Assembly: GCA_027013295.1 (NCBI GenBank)
Contig: JALUXP010000071.1
Span: 1 to 56,082, forward strand
Reading direction: 5' to 3'
DNA length: 56,082 bases
DNA from: Sulfurimonas sp.
GTDB lineage: Bacteria; Campylobacterota; Campylobacteria; Campylobacterales; Sulfurimonadaceae
Made by a program: the position numbers and the translations under genes. Within the stretch, counting starts at the first letter, position 1; every line of letters begins with the position of its first letter. Below, one piece after another: positions 3,285-56,082 of the stretch. Under the pieces are notes generated by a model. The model saw nothing but the letters and a program-made list of their open reading frames with translations. It was not told where the DNA came from and ran no database searches.

Positions 3285-3320
3285 CGCGAAATTAATTTTG
3301 CATAATAAGGTTTTAAATAG

Positions 3321-4535
3321 ATGAAAAAAGAAGTTAAAAAAGTAGTCCTTGCCTATTCAGGTGGACTTGATACTAGTATTATTTTAAAATGGCTCCAAGA
3401 TGAGTATAAATGTGAAGTGGTAACTTTCACAGCAGACTTAGGACAAGGTGAAGAGTTAGAACCAGCTCGCATTAAAGCCTTGGAGTTTGGAATCAAACCT
3501 GAAAATATTTTCATAGATGATTTAAGAGAAGAGTTTGTAAAAGACTATGTATATCCTATGTTTAGAGCGAATGCAATCTATGAGGGAGAGTACCTCTTAG
3601 GCACTTCAATAGCTCGTCCACTCATAGCAAAAAGACAGGCTGAGATCGCAAAAATTACTGGCGCTGATGGAGTAAGTCATGGTGCTACGGGAAAAGGAAA
3701 CGATCAAATACGATTTGAGATGGGCTATCTTAGTCAAGATGCTACCCTGACCATCATTGCCCCTTGGCGTGAATGGGATCTAAACTCAAGAGAAAAACTA
3801 CTCGCCTATGCTGATAAACATGGTATTCCCATTGAAAAAAAAGGGAAAAAGTCTCCTTATTCTATGGATGCGAACTTACTTCATATCTCTTATGAAGGTG
3901 GCATCCTTGAAGATCCAAATGCAGAGCCAGAAGAATCTATGTGGCTCTGGTCTAACTCTCCAGAGAATGCACCTGACAAGGCTGAGTACATTGAAATCGG
4001 TTATGCTCATGGTGATCCAGTAACACTAAACGGCGAAGAGCTCTCCCCTGCTATAATGTTAAAAACTTTAAACGAGCTTGGTGGAAAACATGGTATTGGT
4101 CGTGTTGACATCGTTGAAAATAGATTTGTTGGGATGAAAGCTCGTGGATGCTATGAGACTCCAGGTGGGACTATTATGCTCAAAGCACACCGTGCTATAG
4201 AGTCTATTACGCTTGACCGTGAAGCGGCACACCTCAAAGATGAGATGATGCCAAAGTACGCAAAACTCATCTATAATGGTTTTTGGTTTGCACCTGAGAG
4301 AGAGATGCTTCAAGCCGCGATAGATAGAAGTCAAGAGTTTGTAAACGGAGTAGTACGCCTCAAACTCTACAAAGGAAGTATCATGGTAGTGGGTCGCACC
4401 TCTGCTGATTCACTTTTCAATGAAGAGTATTCGACCTTTGAAGAGGATGAAGTATATAACCAAAAAGATGCAGAGGGTTTTATCAAGCTCAATGCACTTA
4501 GATTTATCATCGCTGGTAAAGCTAGAAGAAAATAA
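3321..4535 (+). CDS. argG: Argininosuccinate synthase
   Basis: This cytoplasmic enzyme joins citrulline and aspartate using ATP, the penultimate step of arginine synthesis. The 404-residue length is normal. The N-terminal ATP-binding P-loop reads AYSGGLDTS (about residues 11-19). The substrate motifs GTSIARP (about 94-100) and [15 protein letters not shown] (about 119-133) are intact. The ATG follows AATAAGG. It is the first gene of a long plus-strand run continuing with the FTR/rhodanese gene 18 bases later. Confidence 0.97.
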
Positions 4536-13506: not shown

Positions 13507-13521
13507 TAGGTGGTTTATACA

Positions 13522-15180
13522 ATGAAATATTTTAAGAGATATTTATTTACAGTAGGAATGAGTTTACTCCTCTCTTCAAGTTTAATTGCTGAGTGTTCTT
13601 ACGAACTCTTTAGTATTAGTTCAGCTAAAAATACTAAGATTGTTAACTTCATAGATCAACTCAGTGATCAATGTGAATTTAGCGTTATTGTCACTGACCC
13701 AATAGCCCAATCCCATCTCAATACAAAACTCAATAAAACACATCTTAAAAACCTTACTATTAATGAAGTACTAGATATTATACTTGTAGAAAATAATCTT
13801 TCATATACATTAGAAAACAATTTACTGAAAATCTCTTATCTCTCAACAAAAATATTTCCCATAGACTATATTCTCTCTCAAAGAAAGGCCAAAGGGAGTA
13901 CACAAATAACACTAAGTTCTTCTACATCTTCTAATCGAGGAAATACTCGAAGGCAAGGTTCGTCTTCATCGGGAAGCAATGGCGTTCAGGGAAACTCAAG
14001 CAACAATCAGGGAAATTCAAGCAATGGTCAAGGAAATTCAAGAAATAATCGAAACAATCGAAACAACTCAGGGGTACAAGCTAGATCTGGAATCTTAATA
14101 AAATCCAGTGATGAAGTAATTTTCTGGAAGGAGCTAGACCTAGAGCTACAAAGAATTATCAATAGACCAGAAGATGCCTATAAAGCACAAGCTCCTATCA
14201 TCAATAAAAATGCAGGTCTTATCACTGTTACAGCTACTGTAAAACAACTCACAAGACTAGAAAACTACCTTCAACAATTACAAGATAAAGTACAACTTCA
14301 AGTTCTTATAGATGTCCAACTTCTCTCTGTAACAATGAACAAAGGGAAAACAACTGGTGTAGACTGGCAACAACTTTATGCTCTTCAAAATATGACCCTA
14401 GAGTTTGGTGGAGGATCTGGAAAGAAAACAAGTACTTCTGGATCTATATTGAACCCAAGTAACTATGTAACCATTAAAGGTGGTGGTTCCCTCAAAGAGG
14501 TTGTCAAATTTTTGCAAACACAAGGTGATGTAAACTCTATCTCAAATCCTAAAGTTCTTACTCTTAACAACCAACCTGCAATGATCACAGTAGGAACTCA
14601 ATACTTTTATAAAATTAAATCGCAAACAAATCAACAATCATCAGTCGGATCAGTATCAGCTGTAACACAAAACAATATAGTCAGATCTGTGTTTGCTGGA
14701 GTTCTCTTAGATATAACTCCTGAGATATCTGATGATGAGATGATTACTCTCAAAATTAATCCTTCTTTATCTGAAACTAGAAAGGACATCTCTCAAACAT
14801 CTTCAAATGATAGAACAATGCCACCAGATTTAAATCGTCGTCAACTCTCTTCAGTTGTCACCATCAAAGACGGAAATAGAATTATTTTAGGTGGTCTTAT
14901 TAACACTAAAAATATTCGTAATTCAAGCAAACTCCCTATTTTAGGAGATATTCCAGGTCTTAGTTATTTTTTTAGATATGAAAGCACAGTCAAGCAGGTA
15001 CAAGAACTTGTTATAGTGATAGAGCCTCACATCATTAGAAAAGGAAACAATAATATCTCTTTAGCTAAATTAGGTTATGAGGGTATTACAAACGAACTTG
15101 TTACACTTAAGAAAAAAGATGCCTTAGCAAAACCTAAGAATACAGAAGTTGCTCCTAAGCAAATCAGTGATGATGACTAA
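13522..15180 (+). CDS. Secretin (MshL/PilQ family, CtsD-like)
   Basis: This outer-membrane channel of type IV pilus, type II secretion or DNA-uptake machines is 552 residues from ATG 13522 (AGGTGG eight bases upstream). It has a signal peptide, an N0/STN domain (about 30-110), and the segment FPIDYILSQRKAKGST typical of MshL. A low-complexity Asn/Gly/Ser linker follows (about 137-190). Then come an N1-type domain and the secretin core, with SISNPKVLTLNNQPAMITVG and an R-x-x-I-L-G-G-L motif ending in ELVIVIEPHII. No lipobox is present. It is the fourth gene of the machine cluster. Confidence 0.92.
   Translation: MKYFKRYLFTVGMSLLLSSSLIAECSYELFSISSAKNTKIVNFIDQLSDQCEFSVIVTDPIAQSHLNTKLNKTHLKNLTINEVLDIILVENNLSYTLENNLLKISYLSTKIFPIDYILSQRKAKGSTQITLSSSTSSNRGNTRRQGSSSSGSNGVQGNSSNNQGNSSNGQGNSRNNRNNRNNSGVQARSGILIKSSDEVIFWKELDLELQRIINRPEDAYKAQAPIINKNAGLITVTATVKQLTRLENYLQQLQDKVQLQVLIDVQLLSVTMNKGKTTGVDWQQLYALQNMTLEFGGGSGKKTSTSGSILNPSNYVTIKGGGSLKEVVKFLQTQGDVNSISNPKVLTLNNQPAMITVGTQYFYKIKSQTNQQSSVGSVSAVTQNNIVRSVFAGVLLDITPEISDDEMITLKINPSLSETRKDISQTSSNDRTMPPDLNRRQLSSVVTIKDGNRIILGGLINTKNIRNSSKLPILGDIPGLSYFFRYESTVKQVQELVIVIEPHIIRKGNNNISLAKLGYEGITNELVTLKKKDALAKPKNTEVAPKQISDDD
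13987..14049 (+). repeat. Three 21-bp tandem repeats inside the secretin gene
   Basis: Units start at 13987, 14008 and 14029. Each is a close variant of CAGGGAAATTCAAGCAA plus four bases, encoding QGNSSNN, QGNSSNG and QGNSRNN. The repeat is in frame, so unit gain or loss changes linker length without breaking the protein. Confidence 0.8.
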
Positions 15181-15188
15181 AATATATA

Positions 15189-15998
15189 ATGAATTCTAGT
15201 CTATATACAAATTCTAAAGATGTATTTTTAGATACTGTAGATGCGAAAGACTATGTACAGCTTGACCGTGTATCAACCATCTACCAATCACTAAAAGATT
15301 CTGTGAAAAAACCTTTAAAGATGATTCTCCTCTATGGGAAGCCAGGGACAGGTAAAAGTATGTTCCTTGCAAAGCTTTGTCAAGATCTTTCCCAAAATCA
15401 AGAGATGCATTACTATAAAACACCCATTTTGGATGAAAGTGAGTTTTTTAAATCTATTGCACATGATTTGTATGATATTGATGATGACAGAGAACTTAAT
15501 TTTACACAAATAATAAAATTGATGCAACTCAATGAAAAAAAAGAGATACCTCTTATTTTGCTAGATGAGGCACAACTCTATGGTGATAAACAGATGGAAA
15601 AAATAAGACTTTTATCTGATACAAGAAAGATTAAGTTTGTTATAGCTTTACATAAAACACAAAGTGAAGATCTTATAGCAAAAGAGCATTTTCAAACAAG
15701 AATTTGGGAATCAATAGAACTAAAAAATGCTTTATCAGCTGAACTCAAGATATATATACAAAAAAAGCTTATGAAAGCAAACTGCTTTGATAGTGCAAAT
15801 ATGTTTTCTAATACATCAATTAAACTTATATATAAACTCACAAATGGAAACTACAGAGATACAAATAAACTTTTACGAACAGTTTTTGAAATATATGAAT
15901 GGTATTATGAGCATAACCTCTCTAAAATCAACACCAATGTAATGAGCAATAAGATCATAGAGATGGCAGCCATTAAAGTAGGACTCATAGATGCGTAA
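15189..15998 (+). CDS. ExeA/MshM-type AAA ATPase (CtsP-like)
   Basis: This 269-residue cytoplasmic ATPase has Walker A GKPGTGKS (about residues 54-61), Walker B LILLDEAQ (about 119-126) and a C-terminal helical lid. ExeA/GspA and MshM proteins help place or assemble the secretin. In Campylobacter, CtsP follows ctsD and is required for natural transformation. Unlike ExeA, it has no membrane segment or peptidoglycan-binding domain, which fits MshM/CtsP. It lies eight bases after the secretin and overlaps the next gene by eight bases. Confidence 0.82.
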   Translation: MNSSLYTNSKDVFLDTVDAKDYVQLDRVSTIYQSLKDSVKKPLKMILLYGKPGTGKSMFLAKLCQDLSQNQEMHYYKTPILDESEFFKSIAHDLYDIDDDRELNFTQIIKLMQLNEKKEIPLILLDEAQLYGDKQMEKIRLLSDTRKIKFVIALHKTQSEDLIAKEHFQTRIWESIELKNALSAELKIYIQKKLMKANCFDSANMFSNTSIKLIYKLTNGNYRDTNKLLRTVFEIYEWYYEHNLSKINTNVMSNKIIEMAAIKVGLIDA

Positions 15999-23937: not shown

Positions 23938-24876
23938 TTATGAACAGATTTCTTCTTTAACACTAGCAAGTGTAGCCATATCAGATACATTTACTGTTTT
24001 AAGCTCTTTTGCGATTCTACGATTGAGTCCTTTAAGTACGATTCCATTTCCGAACTCTATTGCCATATCTAACTCACCCACTACTGCTAAAATAGATTGT
24101 TTATACTTTACGGGTTTTACAAGCTGGTCTTTTAAGAGTGCTACTGCTTCATCTTTTGTTGCATACTTGTTTGTTGTTACATTAGAAACTATAGGTGCTT
24201 CAAAACTCTCTTTAACCATCTCTGACATCAAATCTGCCAAAGGTTGCTGTGCTGGAGCTAAAAGCTCACAATGTGAAGCTACTGACATATCTAATAACAA
24301 GGCACGCTTTGCACCAGCTTCTTTAAAAGTCTGCTCCAATGCAACTAAATCAGATTTCATACCAGCAACAACTAACTGTCCATCTTGATTATAATTTGCA
24401 GGCCAAACTTTTTTACCTTCTGCTTGTGCACTTGCACATATAGCCTCAACACTTGCATCATCTAAACCTACAAGAACCATCATCCCAGCTTCTATGGACT
24501 CACACGCATTTTGCATCAATGCACCACGCTTATGTACTAATTCTACTGCATCTACATAGTCAATAGCACCTGATGCACATAAAGCAGAAAACTCACCAAG
24601 AGAGTGTCCTAAAAATAGCTCAGCTTTTATATCTGGACATGCATCCTTAAAGAGTTTATACGCTACCATCTGCACAAGTAAGATAGCAGGTTGCGTATAT
24701 GCTGTTTGTCCTAATCTATCATTTTCTTCAAAGATTAACTCTTTAAAATCAACACCTATCCTCTCTCCAGCTTTTGCAAACATCTCTCTTGCAACTTCAG
24801 AGTTCTCATAAAAATTTTTCCCCATACCTACGGCTTGACTACCTTGACCTGAAAAGATCATTGCTATTTTCTTCAT
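23938..24876 (-). CDS. fabD: Malonyl-CoA:ACP transacylase
   Basis: This 312-residue enzyme loads malonate onto acyl carrier protein for fatty-acid synthesis. The start MKKIAMIFSGQGSQ is standard. The active-site Ser92 is in GHSLGE, and GVVL-like GNGIVLKGLNRR sits near the end. AAAGGAGATTAACAG precedes the ATG. A palindrome overlaps the -10 box upstream. The nitrilase gene follows without a gap. Confidence 0.96.
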   Translation of the reverse strand: MKKIAMIFSGQGSQAVGMGKNFYENSEVAREMFAKAGERIGVDFKELIFEENDRLGQTAYTQPAILLVQMVAYKLFKDACPDIKAELFLGHSLGEFSALCASGAIDYVDAVELVHKRGALMQNACESIEAGMMVLVGLDDASVEAICASAQAEGKKVWPANYNQDGQLVVAGMKSDLVALEQTFKEAGAKRALLLDMSVASHCELLAPAQQPLADLMSEMVKESFEAPIVSNVTTNKYATKDEAVALLKDQLVKPVKYKQSILAVVGELDMAIEFGNGIVLKGLNRRIAKELKTVNVSDMATLASVKEEICS

Positions 24877-24917
24877 CTGTTAATCTCCTTTATGTAGTGT
24901 TAATCTCTTTAACGAGC

Positions 24918-24939
24918 ATAATTTGCATAGCAAATTATA
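24918..24939 (-). promoter_or_regulatory. fabD promoter with palindrome over the -10 box
   Basis: On the minus strand the -10 box TATAAT (24934-24939) runs into a perfect inverted repeat, ATAATTTGC-TAT-GCAAATTAT (24918-24938). A wider imperfect repeat, GTTAATCTCTTT/AAAAAGATTAAC, brackets it (about 24899-24910 and 24950-24961). This could be an operator for a fatty-acid regulator or simply an RNA hairpin. No regulator is identified. Confidence 0.5.
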
Positions 24940-24989
24940 GCTGGATAAGAAAAAGATTAACTCTATTATTCCTTAACCCAGTAGGGCAA

Positions 24990-25742
24990 CTAAAGATACT
25001 GATCATTATCAGCTATTTTTTTTCTTAATGTATTTCTGTTTAAACCTAACCTATCGGATAGCTGAAGCTGAGATTTAAACTTACTTAGACCTGCACGAAT
25101 CAAAGGAACTTCATAGAGGTATAAAAAATTTCTATAATCACTATTAGAGCCAAGTTTATCTTCAAAATAATTTTCAATTATATCCATCAATTCAACATCA
25201 TTAATATCTTGGAGTAGTGAACTAATCATCAACTGTCTTTTTAAAGAGTTAGAATTTTGAGTCAAATCTGGTTTAAAATTTTTAATATTTAACTGTGCAC
25301 TTGTATTGAAAAGCTCCGCCGCTTCTTTCATATAAAGTTCTGTCAACTCCTTTACATCTTCAGGTCTCTCTTTTAAAGATGGAATATCAAACTTAACACT
25401 AAAGGCATCATCAATATACTCATTATAAAAAGAGCTTGTAGCGGTAGCGACTAAACGCACCGATTTTTCTTTGACAAGGTCTAGAACTTTTTTTATATTA
25501 GGTATATTTTCAAAATTTACAATGATGATTTCATTAACACTTTGGAGGGCTATAAGTATCTTTTTGTATTCAGATGCATCATAAACCTGTGCATCATTTA
25601 AGATATATTTTGCAAGAGTTTTTTTACCGACACCTCTCTCACCACTTATCAGGGCATTGACACTAAGTACTTTAAGTAAGGTTGCAGTTTTATAAGCTTG
25701 TGCAGAAGATGCACAAGCAGTTATAAAATTAGTCGCATCCAC
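24990..25742 (-). CDS. Degenerate sigma-54-activator-like AAA protein with Fis-type HTH
   Basis: This 250-residue protein from GTG 25742 overlaps the slyD end by 14 bases. The first longer frame start is buried in slyD and has no ribosome site. It looks like the AAA+ core of NtrC-type activators: a Walker A-like GERGVGKKT (about residues 35-43) and IPSLKERPEDVKEL, followed by a C-terminal Fis-type helix-turn-helix (LSDRLGLNRNTLRKKI). However, the GAFTGA loop that contacts sigma-54 is absent, Walker B is degenerate (IIIVNFENI), and no receiver domain is present. It probably binds DNA but may not drive sigma-54 promoters. Confidence 0.75.
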   Translation of the reverse strand: MDATNFITACASSAQAYKTATLLKVLSVNALISGERGVGKKTLAKYILNDAQVYDASEYKKILIALQSVNEIIIVNFENIPNIKKVLDLVKEKSVRLVATATSSFYNEYIDDAFSVKFDIPSLKERPEDVKELTELYMKEAAELFNTSAQLNIKNFKPDLTQNSNSLKRQLMISSLLQDINDVELMDIIENYFEDKLGSNSDYRNFLYLYEVPLIRAGLSKFKSQLQLSDRLGLNRNTLRKKIADNDQYL

Positions 25743-26247
25743 AACTAGAGCCAGTGCTACAACAACCACCATCATCTGGTTGTGCATTCTCAGCAGGTAT
25801 TCCAGTCATAGCCTCCTCAGCAGAAGCCTCTCTAATATTGTTAATGGTAACACTAAACATTAAATCCTTTCCAGCTAAAGGGTGATTAAAATCAATAATG
25901 ATATTTTCTTCACCAATCTCTTTAACAACAACTTGTACAGTTCCACCATCTTCACCTTGACCATATAAAGTCATTCCAATTTCTAAGTCAATTCCTTCAA
26001 ATTGATCTTTAGGTACTTCTTGTCTTGCTTCTTCGTTAAAATCACCATAAGCATCTGCAGCTTTTACAAGGATATTACCTTTCTCACCAATAGCCATATC
26101 TACTATACCACTCTCTAAACCAGGAATGATTTGACCCTTACCAAACATAAATACCAATGGTGCTCCACCAACATTACTATCTACTATCTCATCTCCATCT
26201 TTTACTTCATACTCTAATGATACAATTTGATTTGCTTCAATTGCCAT
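25729..26247 (-). CDS. slyD: SlyD-type FKBP peptidyl-prolyl isomerase
   Basis: This 172-residue protein has the FKBP domain split by the insert-in-flap chaperone domain (about 70-120) typical of SlyD. It starts with VSLEYEVKDGDEIVDSN and carries FGKGQIIPGLE. The C-terminal tail ends in Asp-Asp-Gly-Gly followed by a Cys-rich CCSTGSSCGCD, resembling the metal-binding tail of SlyD that supplies nickel to hydrogenases, though without the histidines. It is in the conserved pal-cpoB-slyD-fabD order. Confidence 0.92.
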   Translation of the reverse strand: MAIEANQIVSLEYEVKDGDEIVDSNVGGAPLVFMFGKGQIIPGLESGIVDMAIGEKGNILVKAADAYGDFNEEARQEVPKDQFEGIDLEIGMTLYGQGEDGGTVQVVVKEIGEENIIIDFNHPLAGKDLMFSVTINNIREASAEEAMTGIPAENAQPDDGGCCSTGSSCGCD

Positions 26248-49457: not shown

Positions 49458-50726
49458 TCAATGCAGATGATAAAGTTTTTTTCTTTCACTAGATCCAGCA
49501 ATATTAAGTTGCTTTCTATATTTAGCTATGGTGCGTCTTACCATAGTCACTTTAAATCTGTTTTGAATCAATTTTAAAAGCTTCATATCACTTAAAGGTT
49601 TCACTCTTGATTCCTCTTTTATAAGGGATATTAAAAACTCTTTTATAGCTGCATTACTCACATCTTCATCGATAGCTGTTGTAAAAAACTCTTTCATCGC
49701 TAAAACACCTCTGTTGCATGCTATGTATTTGTTTGCTATTGCACGAGATATGGTAGATGGATTGTGTCCAAACTCATCGGCTAAAGTCTTAAGCGTAAGT
49801 GGCATAATCTGCCCACCAGTGAAAAACTCATACTGGTACTCAACAATCATCAATCCCACTTTATACAAGGTTGCTTTACGCATATCTAGTGCATCAACTA
49901 AGGATTTAGCCTCTTTTATCTTTTGAGATATAAAATCATGCTCTACACCATAGTTTGTATCTATATGTATCGTTGGATAATATGCATCATTTAATTTTAC
50001 CTCTATATCTTGTCCATCATTAAAGTAGATCATCAAATCAGGGATTATCTGAGAAGACTCCTCTTGGTATTCAATAGCAGGAGGATTTTTAAAAGTTCCT
50101 AGAACTCGCATCACTTCAGAAAAGTTTTTTTCATCAGCATAACTATATATATCTTCTAAATCTTTTATTACCTCTAAGGCTAAAGGGTATGCTTCCTCAC
50201 TTATATCGGAACTCTCAAGCTGAAACAAAAAACTTTCAGAGAGATCATGTGCACCAATACCCACTGGAACAACATGAATAAATCTTAAACGAATTTTTTC
50301 AAAAGCTTCTTCTTGTATCCCCTCCGCTTGGCAAAACTTCAGCGTATCACCCTCATAATACCCACCATCATCAAGGTTTGAGACAACAAACATAGCTATC
50401 TTTTGTGACAGTGGTGTTGGAAAAAGCGGAGCTTCTAACTGTTCATCTAAAACATCATGTAAAGAGCGGTATTGAATAGTAAGTGCCTCTATCTGTTCTG
50501 TTCTTGAGTTTGAGACTTGTCCACTAATGATTTTTTTTGGAATCTTTTTTTCAAATTCCTCTTCGTAGCCAGATTCTATTTCTACCACAGGATTAGCCTC
50601 AATAAAAGGTGCCATAGCATCACCTAAATCACTCAAACTTGAGTGGAGTATTGGTAACCAATTTCTTAGTGTGTTAGAGAGTTTATGCTTCGTCTCAACT
50701 GATCTACTTTGTCTAAGTCTTGCCAT
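49458..50726 (-). CDS. rpoN: RNA polymerase sigma-54 factor
   Basis: This 422-residue factor has the N-terminal activator-responding region (LRQSRSVETKHKLSNTLRNW...), a core-binding middle, a helix-turn-helix (LADEFGHNPSTISRAI) and the RpoN box (VRRTIAKYRKQLNI). In Campylobacterota sigma-54 drives mid-stage flagellar genes through FlgR. It is shorter than the roughly 480 residues of E. coli, as in this phylum. The acidic region II is reduced. Confidence 0.95.
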   Translation of the reverse strand: MARLRQSRSVETKHKLSNTLRNWLPILHSSLSDLGDAMAPFIEANPVVEIESGYEEEFEKKIPKKIISGQVSNSRTEQIEALTIQYRSLHDVLDEQLEAPLFPTPLSQKIAMFVVSNLDDGGYYEGDTLKFCQAEGIQEEAFEKIRLRFIHVVPVGIGAHDLSESFLFQLESSDISEEAYPLALEVIKDLEDIYSYADEKNFSEVMRVLGTFKNPPAIEYQEESSQIIPDLMIYFNDGQDIEVKLNDAYYPTIHIDTNYGVEHDFISQKIKEAKSLVDALDMRKATLYKVGLMIVEYQYEFFTGGQIMPLTLKTLADEFGHNPSTISRAIANKYIACNRGVLAMKEFFTTAIDEDVSNAAIKEFLISLIKEESRVKPLSDMKLLKLIQNRFKVTMVRRTIAKYRKQLNIAGSSERKKLYHLH

Positions 50727-55237: not shown

Positions 55238-56082
55238 TCATGTCACAAGCTTTAAACTCTGGTCTATGCAAATAGATAAAATACCGAATGCAAGGACAGA
55301 AGCTACTTTTGTGGCTCCTTGATAGTAAATCTTATTACATCCAAAGTCATCTTTTAAAAGCTTATTTACTCTTTCAACCATACTTCTTTGATTGTAATGC
55401 TTTTCATCACAGTTTAGGTGTTGGTTTAGATATTTGAATGTTTTATTTTCGTGTTCCATAAGCTCAATCTTTGCTTTGAGTTCTTTAGAATTTTTAGGAT
55501 TAATGTCTATTATAGGGCGATGTCCCAATTTGGTTGAAAACTCTCTAATAATATCAGCATCATATCCTGCATCTTGCAGGTCATACAAGTAGTTCACTCT
55601 TTTACTTGTCTCTTGCATAAGAGGAAGTGATACGGAACTATCATGTACATTAGCACCTGAATAAAATGCTGTTATTGGTATATCTCCATCTACTACAGAG
55701 ATATGTAAACTACCACCTATCCATACTTCACGGTTACCTTTGGAGTTTTGTTTTATACCTACACCGCAGTTTGTAGAAACAAGTGAAAGCATCTCATCTA
55801 CTGTTTGCATATCCTTTTGTTGTTCTAAAATCTTTGGCTTTATTGGCTCTCGTGTTTCACCTTTTTTAGGTCGTCCAGGCTTGTGTTTTGCTTTTGGTTC
55901 TTCTTTGGCTTTTTTAACTACTTTTTCTCGTAGTGGTATTTTAGTAGCATCTGTCGCATTATAGAAAAATGTTTTTTCACTGAGATACTCCCCAACAAAT
56001 TTTTCATGAGTCTTTTGAGCTATTTGCATTGTGCTAATCTCATCAAAAGCTCTGCTGAAAGTAGCTTCACTTGGAATTTCCT
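55238..56082 (-). CDS. DDE transposase, partial at window edge
   Basis: The frame is open from 55238 to the window end, so the 5' part is missing. It encodes at least 281 residues with the start region EIPSEATFSRAFDEIS. A Lys/Pro/Glu-rich insert follows, then an RNase H-type catalytic core (VWIGGSLHISVVDGDIPI, DAGYDADII, GHRPIIDINP, RSMVERVNKLLKDDFG). By layout this is a DDE transposase like the IS1182/ISNCY-type elements. The second Asp (DAGYD) and the Glu (VERVNK) are present. The first Asp, expected in the segment CDVGTK of relatives as I remember them, reads CGVGIK here. The element's ends are not determined. Confidence 0.85.
   Translation of the reverse strand, partial: EIPSEATFSRAFDEISTMQIAQKTHEKFVGEYLSEKTFFYNATDATKIPLREKVVKKAKEEPKAKHKPGRPKKGETREPIKPKILEQQKDMQTVDEMLSLVSTNCGVGIKQNSKGNREVWIGGSLHISVVDGDIPITAFYSGANVHDSSVSLPLMQETSKRVNYLYDLQDAGYDADIIREFSTKLGHRPIIDINPKNSKELKAKIELMEHENKTFKYLNQHLNCDEKHYNQRSMVERVNKLLKDDFGCNKIYYQGATKVASVLAFGILSICIDQSLKLVT

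Follow-up and report, generated by a model that had tools for sequence, protein, structure and literature searches.

An NtrC-like Protein without Receiver Domain and GAFTGA Loop in Sulfurimonas: Association with an NtrB Remnant and with Palindromes at Nitrogen Genes

Introduction

What does a protein of the sigma-54 activator type do when it has lost the GAFTGA loop? The question is raised by an open reading frame of 250 amino acids in a 56,082-nt stretch of Sulfurimonas sp. DNA (assembly GCA_027013295.1, contig JALUXP010000071.1); the whole stretch is termed the window here. The initial annotation, made from the sequence alone, described the encoded protein as derived from a sigma-54 activator and proposed that it may be a repressor or a DNA organiser. 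The protein is termed NtrC' below.

A comparison of the regulons of 33 regulator groups, NtrC among them, omitted the epsilonproteobacteria; an excerpt of that paper (PMC5343134) gives as the reason that orthologues of the target regulators are absent there. NtrC' could be the nitrogen regulator that is missing there. It comes with a putative partner, a predicted DNA site and a testable regulon, and it is of relevance to nitrogen control in the chemoautotrophs of vents and sediments. A literature search limited to open-licence PMC papers found no description of a protein like it.

Position in the Window

The NtrC' open reading frame has a GTG start codon at position 25742 and a stop codon at 24990–24992. 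Table 1 lists its motifs together with neighboring genes. The rpoN gene is present in the same window, as the initial annotation had stated.

Table 1. Location of NtrC', its motifs and neighboring genes in the window.
Feature	Position	Strand	Remark
ntrC' (250 aa, GTG start)	24990..25742	-	NtrC-like regulator without receiver, without GAFTGA
Walker A GERGVGKKT, residues 34–42	25620..25643 (residues 34–41)	-	
Degenerate Walker B region, residues 71–77	25512..25532	-	alignment and model
IPSLKERPEDV (PPLRER-ED region of bEBPs), residues 120–130	25353..25385	-	
Fis-like dimerisation helices, residues 182–222	25077..25199	-	model and alignment to Fis-like chains
Helix-turn-helix, residues 225–245, recognition helix NRNTLRKKI	25008..25070	-	
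slyD	25729..26247	-	3' end overlaps the ntrC' start by 14 bases
fabD	23938..24876	-	downstream neighbor of ntrC'
rpoN	49458..50726	-	same window as ntrC'

The 113 bases between ntrC' and fabD (24877–24989) contain, in the genome of the window, a perfect 9-3-9 inverted repeat, ATAATTTGC TAT GCAAATTAT. At ten other loci inspected in the family, fabD starts within about 40 bases. Elsewhere in the window, a secretin gene is followed by an AAA_22 ATPase gene (13510–15998), both probably belonging to a type II secretion cluster or a pilus-like one, and a DDE-type transposase gene is located at the window end (55238–56029).

Homology to NtrC

The best NCBIfam match of NtrC' is the NtrC model TIGR01818 (E-value = 6e-9, residues 183–245), with a score of 35.2 bits that is far under the curated cut-off of 558.6. 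The same model is matched by all 51 relatives of NtrC' (51/51) at E-value ≤ 0.01. A profile of the 51 members was compared by hhalign with E. coli NtrC, PspF and AtoC; the match spans the AAA+ domain plus the DNA-binding domain (probability 98.7, E-value = 3e-16). A further hhalign comparison with NtrC (probability 98.2) starts at NtrC residue 138.

The AlphaFold model of NtrC' (pLDDT 89) has sigma-54 activators as its best structural matches, e.g. NtrC4 with Z = 17.4 over 179 residues at 2.2 Å; VpsR is also among the matches (Z = 16.1). The absence of a family from this list of fold matches was not counted as evidence. The profile comparison and the structural matches bear out the proposed derivation, and descent of NtrC' from a sigma-54 activator is well supported by sequence and by the predicted structure.

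A canonical NtrC elsewhere in the genomes of the class was considered and rejected: with up to five candidates scored per genome, none of 298 genomes has a protein over the curated cut-off. One of 14 control genomes does. The best matches to the NtrC model in the 298 genomes (positions 1–377) appear to be FlgR-like.

Motifs Kept and Lost

The Walker A-like motif reported in the initial annotation is indeed kept: all 51 aligned relatives share Gly34 and Gly39, and position 40 is lysine in 50 of them and arginine in one. The IPSLKERPEDV segment is likewise present, and residue 126 within it is arginine in 49 of the 51 sequences. The Fis-type helix-turn-helix is real, though it is under the Pfam cut-off (HTH_8, E-value = 0.0014, 18.8 bits with a cut-off of 22); it contains residues that are invariant among the 51 relatives, as are the Walker A glycines. 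The Sigma54_activat model of Pfam also gives a sub-threshold match (E-value = 0.0015, 18.7 bits, cut-off 20.2). In the predicted model the dimerisation part consists of helices at residues 182–196, 202–206 and 208–222.

The losses that had been listed were also found. In an alignment with E. coli NtrC, PspF and AtoC, the GAFTGA region is a gap in all seven NtrC' rows, and the Walker A lysine is 36 residues from the aligned Walker B position, as opposed to 65 in E. coli NtrC (K174–D239). The loop region has thus been deleted, and a diverged GAFTGA loop at the correct position is rejected. A stretch near the arginine fingers is deleted as well, with no conserved arginine at residues 104–113 among the 51 relatives. 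The chain length of 250 aa and the alignment start at NtrC residue 138 show that the receiver domain is absent; NtrC' thus would not be phosphorylatable in the way of NtrC.

A good Walker B is missing as far as the standard hhhhDE motif is concerned. In the sequence alignment the column of the catalytic glutamate is F, I or L in 51/51 relatives, and that of the aspartate is N in 26, D in 12 and another residue in 13. Since the aligned glutamate and the arginine fingers are gone, NtrC' probably does not hydrolyze ATP. Residue 78, one position past the aligned glutamate column, is acidic (E or D) in 42/51 relatives, so that a displaced Walker B, and with it ATP hydrolysis, is possible. The conserved Walker A suggests that nucleotide is still bound.

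Distribution and Gene Neighborhood

Conservation across Sulfurimonas was checked in 60 genomes from the window's genus, of which 53 encode NtrC'; among the 38 of good quality, 37 do. Across the class, 298 genomes were sampled, and 101 of these, from 39 of 58 genera, encode it, with one match per genome. The closest named homologue record is from a Sulfurimonas (84% identity), and the titles of more remote records name Sulfuricurvum, Sulfurospirillum, Sulfurovum, Arcobacter and Hydrogenimonas. The protein is absent from families f2 and f3, which are probably Helicobacteraceae and Campylobacteraceae, save for genomes G224 and G288.

The order slyD-ntrC'-fabD is found in 63 of 94 loci and in several other families; in the remaining 31 loci the gene is elsewhere. 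A function specific to the slyD-fabD place is rejected on the basis of these 31 loci. The initial annotation had the gene inserted between slyD and fabD, where Campylobacter has nothing. The position is correct; as several further families have this gene order, the place may instead be ancestral and have been lost in Campylobacter.

Two genomes of the window's genus display slyD-fabD without the gene: G308 (loci L098 and L235) and G036 (L236). In G308 an NtrC' gene of the NRM-helix type adjoins an NtrB remnant, amtB and P-II, and this locus has asymmetric TGTATA-N5-TACTCA elements. In G036, the only good-quality genome of the genus without NtrC', a search found none of NtrC', NtrB remnant and P-II.

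Loci outside slyD-fabD point to nitrogen metabolism. Neighbors were clustered for 29 of the 31 (L065 and L076 were left out): amtB is present in 19, P-II in 19, and glnD in five loci of family f7. Among all 129 NtrC' loci (123 distinct, six being repeats from genomes that are present in two collections), P-II is found in 26, amtB in 28, glnD in eight, and at least one of these in 30. The loci of f1, which are short slyD-fabD stretches, are without P-II, amtB and glnD, except for L098 of G308. The identity of P-II, AmtB and GlnD was confirmed by Pfam in locus L063. P-II is encoded in all 101 genomes with NtrC'; 36 genomes have P-II and no NtrC'.

An NtrB Remnant as Putative Partner

A protein of ~230 aa, a remnant of NtrB termed NtrB' here, is encoded next to NtrC' in 22 of the 29 loci outside slyD-fabD and, going by coordinates, in a 23rd (L078). 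In the same set of 298 genomes it was found in exactly the 101 that hold NtrC'. In the window's genus it is present in 55 of 60 genomes, the sole good-quality genome without it being G036. Four genomes have the remnant without NtrC' (G028, G035, G049 and G056) and two have NtrC' without the remnant (G037 and G059); all six are <90% complete.

The N-terminal part of NtrB' is PAS-like. TIGR00229 weakly matches 9 of 21 members at E-value ≤ 0.1 (8.9e-5 at best), and Pfam PAS gives a sub-threshold match in one of three members scanned; the copy in the window's own genome has no Pfam matches. The C-terminal part aligns with NtrB from the YDPSLPE segment onward, and an H-box is absent from all 22 aligned members. 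Against 15 NtrB sequences the NtrB' profile gives a probability of 90 (E-value = 1.7e-6), against E. coli NtrB alone a probability of 12; the NtrB model is matched weakly by 8 of 21 members.

A structure was modeled for a Sulfurovum-type relative rather than for the copy of the window's genome (pLDDT 87). The model displays the histidine-kinase catalytic-domain fold, with no long helical DHp hairpin. Its C-terminal domain matches E. coli NtrB 1r62 with Z = 15.3, tied with RetS, ThkA and other kinases, so that the predicted structure points to kinase catalytic domains in general.

In the window's genome the NtrB' gene is away from ntrC' and beside the gene for a 617-aa sigma-70 protein (Pfam regions 1.2, 2, 3 and 4); NtrB' is encoded next to rpoD in several families. 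A sigma-70 (rpoD-like) gene adjoins NtrB' in 19 of 20 fetched loci where it is not beside ntrC' (L185–L204), where its identity was established by Pfam for the L185 protein and by sequence clustering for the others.

A Palindrome Near Nitrogen Genes

A 17-bp palindrome, TGATTA-N5-TAATCA, is present upstream of amtB-glnK in the window's genus. Thirty P-II loci (92,153 bases) contain 38 exact copies, and 26 of the 30 have at least one; there is none in 600 first-order shuffled loci. Most copies either precede the first amtB or fall between glnK and a second amtB. Overall, the genes that the palindrome precedes are amtB-glnK, glnA, those for nitrate transporters and, in some families, ntrC' itself. 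It is not beside ntrC' in the window's genus. Outside the genus it may directly precede ntrC', e.g. in L072 (site at 3289, gene at 3321) and L074, and in other loci it is near amtB or P-II.

Class-wide, the 101 genomes with NtrC' contain 187 exact sites compared with 18 for a reversed-pattern control, and the 197 genomes without it 39, close to the control number of 22 (raw counts, from genomes that share ancestry). When sites were counted by type of recognition helix, for which the 70 of 101 genomes with the NtrC' sequence in hand were used, 10 of 52 NRN genomes were found to be without an exact site.

The consensus for CRP/FNR boxes is TTGAT-N9-ATCAA; a reading of the palindrome as such a box was rejected because the spacing does not fit. 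The palindrome does fit the 15-bp Fis consensus GNtYAaWWWtTRaNC, as given in part of PMC2816674. Two of 44 Rhodobacterales-type loci (L141–L184; L142 at 3335, L166 at 3305) also have it, ahead of a dusB-like gene that is followed by ntrB and ntrC, which suggests that the GAFTGA-less NtrC there reads the same site.

Predicted Targets and Promoter Geometry

Targets are defined here as genes near a predicted palindrome. The window's genome has three exact sites. One is before amtB-glnK, another is 73 bp before a porin-like gene, and the third is before a NarK-like transporter gene (TIGR00886, 222 bits, under the cut-off of 312).

Genome G179 has 21 sites, of which 14, at 13 places, were fetched in addition to the three in L063. 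Six of the 13 places face nitrogen-related genes by HMM, the HMM scan having covered these six. They include a NifA-like regulator (517 bits, cut-off 529), nirB, a formate/nitrite transporter, an NMT1-like binding protein, a molybdopterin oxidoreductase, eutB and urtA; the NMT1-like protein and the oxidoreductase are assigned to nitrate uptake and reduction by their context only. Four of seven sites were examined in G343: these are near gltB, glnA, an MFS transporter resembling NarK, and a gene that resembles the one beside the NarK site of the window's genome. Other sites are near glnA (G110), a NarK-like transporter (G063, 244 bits, under the cut-off), and a urea-type ABC transporter and a porin-like gene (G173). 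The predicted set resembles the NtrC regulon as summarised in an excerpt of PMC5343134.

The palindromes of the window's genus have a regular position relative to the promoter. A TATAAT-like box starts 39–41 bp from the site center in 31 of the 38 sites, 29 times as exact TATAAT, and a sigma-54-like element is downstream of one of the 38. If the start of the -10 box is taken as -12, the site center would be near -52, a position of sigma-70 activators; the fixed spacing upstream of a sigma-70 -10 box thus points to activator geometry. In several amtB promoters of L205–L234 an additional TGATTAAT half-site follows the palindrome ahead of the -10 box; it may be a -35 element or may serve as a second site of binding.

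These data bear on the proposal that NtrC' binds the nitrogen palindromes as a repressor, with the upstream dimer blocking the promoter when nitrogen is plentiful. The AAA+ domain keeps little of the activation machinery, and the GAFTGA-less NtrC of Caulobacter represses as well as activates, according to passages of PMC10274813. However, most sites are clear of the -10 box at the spacing given above, and the targets are genes of the NtrC regulon (PMC5343134, in part). Repression is therefore regarded as unlikely. The suggestion that NtrC' may be a repressor or DNA organiser is not favored by the three exact sites of the window's genome, the nitrogen targets and the fixed sigma-70 -10 spacing.

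Covariation of Half-site and Recognition Helix

An alternative site, TGTATA-N5-TATACA, is found in several loci of f7, in L088 and L090 (g16 of f8), and in L126 and L135. The residue at position 237 of NtrC', which is N in the protein of the window, tracks the half-site type across families. The 123 distinct loci divide as follows: 108 of NRN or NRV type have 20 exact TGATTA-type sites and no TGTATA-type site, and 13 of NRI or NRA type have 13 TGTATA-type sites and no TGATTA-type site; one NRT and one NRM locus have neither.

Whole genomes display the same trend, less cleanly. In f7, 12 genomes with NtrC' contain 75 TGTATA sites compared with 15 in the control, and eight genomes without it contain three compared with four. 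Within g13 of f7, G343 and G349, which have NtrC', show seven and three such sites, and the seven genomes without it show 0, 0, 0, 1, 0, 0 and 0. Outside f7 there is no clear enrichment of TGTATA sites in 89 genomes with NtrC' (38 compared with 25 in the control); the full set of 197 genomes without it has 55 compared with 31.

In f8, a single TGATTA-type site is found in each of the NRN genomes G110, G114 and G312, and G110 has one TGTATA site besides. The f8 NRA genomes have two TGTATA-type sites (G072, plus one TGATTA), one (G093, with one in the control) and none (G333). The NRI genome G153 of f4 has three TGTATA-type and no TGATTA-type sites; neither type is found in G264 of the same genus. 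The main basis of the lineage contrast in half-site is f7, together with the loci around ntrC'.

The covariation concerns another explanation, namely that the palindrome is read by an unrelated nitrogen regulator and NtrC' is a co-inherited passenger or has some other role. The presence of NtrC' and of the sites both follow the phylogenetic tree, as this explanation would have it. Against it, the half-site type follows the NtrC' recognition helix, and in g13 the sites (seven and three) go with NtrC' rather than with the seven genomes that do not have it (0–1). The motif also fits the Fis consensus given in PMC2816674, and two of the 44 Rhodobacterales-type loci have it ahead of dusB-like, ntrB and ntrC genes. 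An unrelated reader of the site is accordingly held to be quite improbable.

Still less probable is a role as a Fis-like nucleoid-associated protein or DNA organiser: while the C-terminal domain is Fis-like and the site fits the Fis consensus, there are few sites, the targets are nitrogen genes, the pairing with the NtrB remnant is strict, and P-II is present in every genome with NtrC'. That NtrC' is a functionless, decaying remnant of NtrC, as the loss of many catalytic motifs might imply, is scarcely credible in view of its presence in nearly all good-quality genomes of the genus (37 of 38) and in 39 of the 58 sampled genera, and of its invariant Walker A glycines and helix-turn-helix residues.

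Proposed Mode of Action

The NtrC homology, the loss of receiver and GAFTGA, the co-occurrence with an NtrB remnant in the sampled genomes and the association of the palindrome with nitrogen genes are established by sequence comparison. Their most satisfactory explanation, which we consider highly probable on sequence grounds, is that NtrC' is an NtrC without receiver and GAFTGA that activates a nitrogen regulon from sigma-70 promoters together with a kinase-dead NtrB.

NtrC' would be reduced to an AAA+ core and a Fis-type DNA-binding domain. A dimer would bind TGATTA-N5-TAATCA or TGTATA-N5-TATACA, as set by residue 237, and from a position ~52 bp upstream of the start site would activate sigma-70 RNA polymerase. 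The genes under its control would be amtB-glnK, glnA, gltB, those for nitrate and nitrite uptake and reduction, those for the use of urea and ethanolamine, and a nifA-like gene in one of the genomes. Because phosphotransfer parts are missing in both partners, direct contact with NtrB', in the manner of NifL and NifA, is the simplest inference and the most likely form of control. PII (GlnK) is probably the nitrogen signal, since P-II is encoded in all 101 genomes with NtrC'.

With less assurance, the evidence inclines us to a broader proposal: much of Campylobacterota may control nitrogen genes by a phosphorelay-free NtrB'/NtrC' contact switch, with PII and perhaps redox inputs, acting at sigma-70 promoters. 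The pair would offer a case from nature in which a phosphorelay has become a direct-contact switch. NtrC' may also be an example of an activator shifted from sigma-54 to sigma-70 control, of which a few cases are known besides the alphaproteobacteria. For the alphaproteobacteria the shift is described in part of PMC10274813. Through the covariation of half-site and helix, the DNA code that Fis-type helices read can be tested directly.

Comparison with Known Systems

VpsR and TyrR are GAFTGA-less bEBP relatives that share the bEBP fold with NtrC'. They respond to other effectors and belong to other pathways, and VpsR, with 376 residues in its structure, exceeds NtrC' in length. Fis has the same helix layout and an NRxTLRKK-type recognition helix, and its consensus fits the site; however, Fis is short and has no AAA+ domain, whereas NtrC' has an AAA+ domain and few predicted sites.

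NifA is sigma-54-dependent and has kept GAFTGA. The NifL-NifA system is similar in that a phosphotransfer-free protein with PAS and GHKL folds is paired with an AAA+ regulator, and NifL controls NifA through direct contact (PMC12998174, in part). It differs in that NtrC' is without GAFTGA and in that the NtrC'/NtrB' complex is deduced from co-occurrence and the lost phosphotransfer parts.

NtrC itself (NR(I), E. coli GlnG) has a homologous AAA+ core and Fis-type helix-turn-helix. NtrC sites are 6-N5-6 dyads, and the sites associated with NtrC' have the same form. The predicted targets of NtrC' (glnA, amtB, glnK, gltB, nitrate transport and urtA) are also similar, as judged from an excerpt of PMC5343134. 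Unlike NtrC, NtrC' is without receiver, GAFTGA, standard Walker B and conserved arginine fingers, and has 250 aa compared with 469.

The GAFTGA-less NtrC of Rhodobacterales and Caulobacter has lost the sigma-54 loop as NtrC' has; in Rhodobacter and Caulobacter such an NtrC works from sigma-70 promoters (parts of PMC10274813). The aligned Rhodobacterales proteins have the NRNTLRKKI helix in common with NtrC', and the same palindrome is upstream of dusB-like/ntrB/ntrC genes in two loci. These proteins are, however, full length (454–458 aa), keep the GNVR(Q/E)L region and have an adjoining NtrB with an H-box. The sigma-70-type NtrC of R. capsulatus has a receiver and a kinase NtrB, and its activation of sigma-70 RNA polymerase requires ATP binding; NtrC' is without receiver and kinase. 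Its predicted promoter geometry agrees with that of this system.
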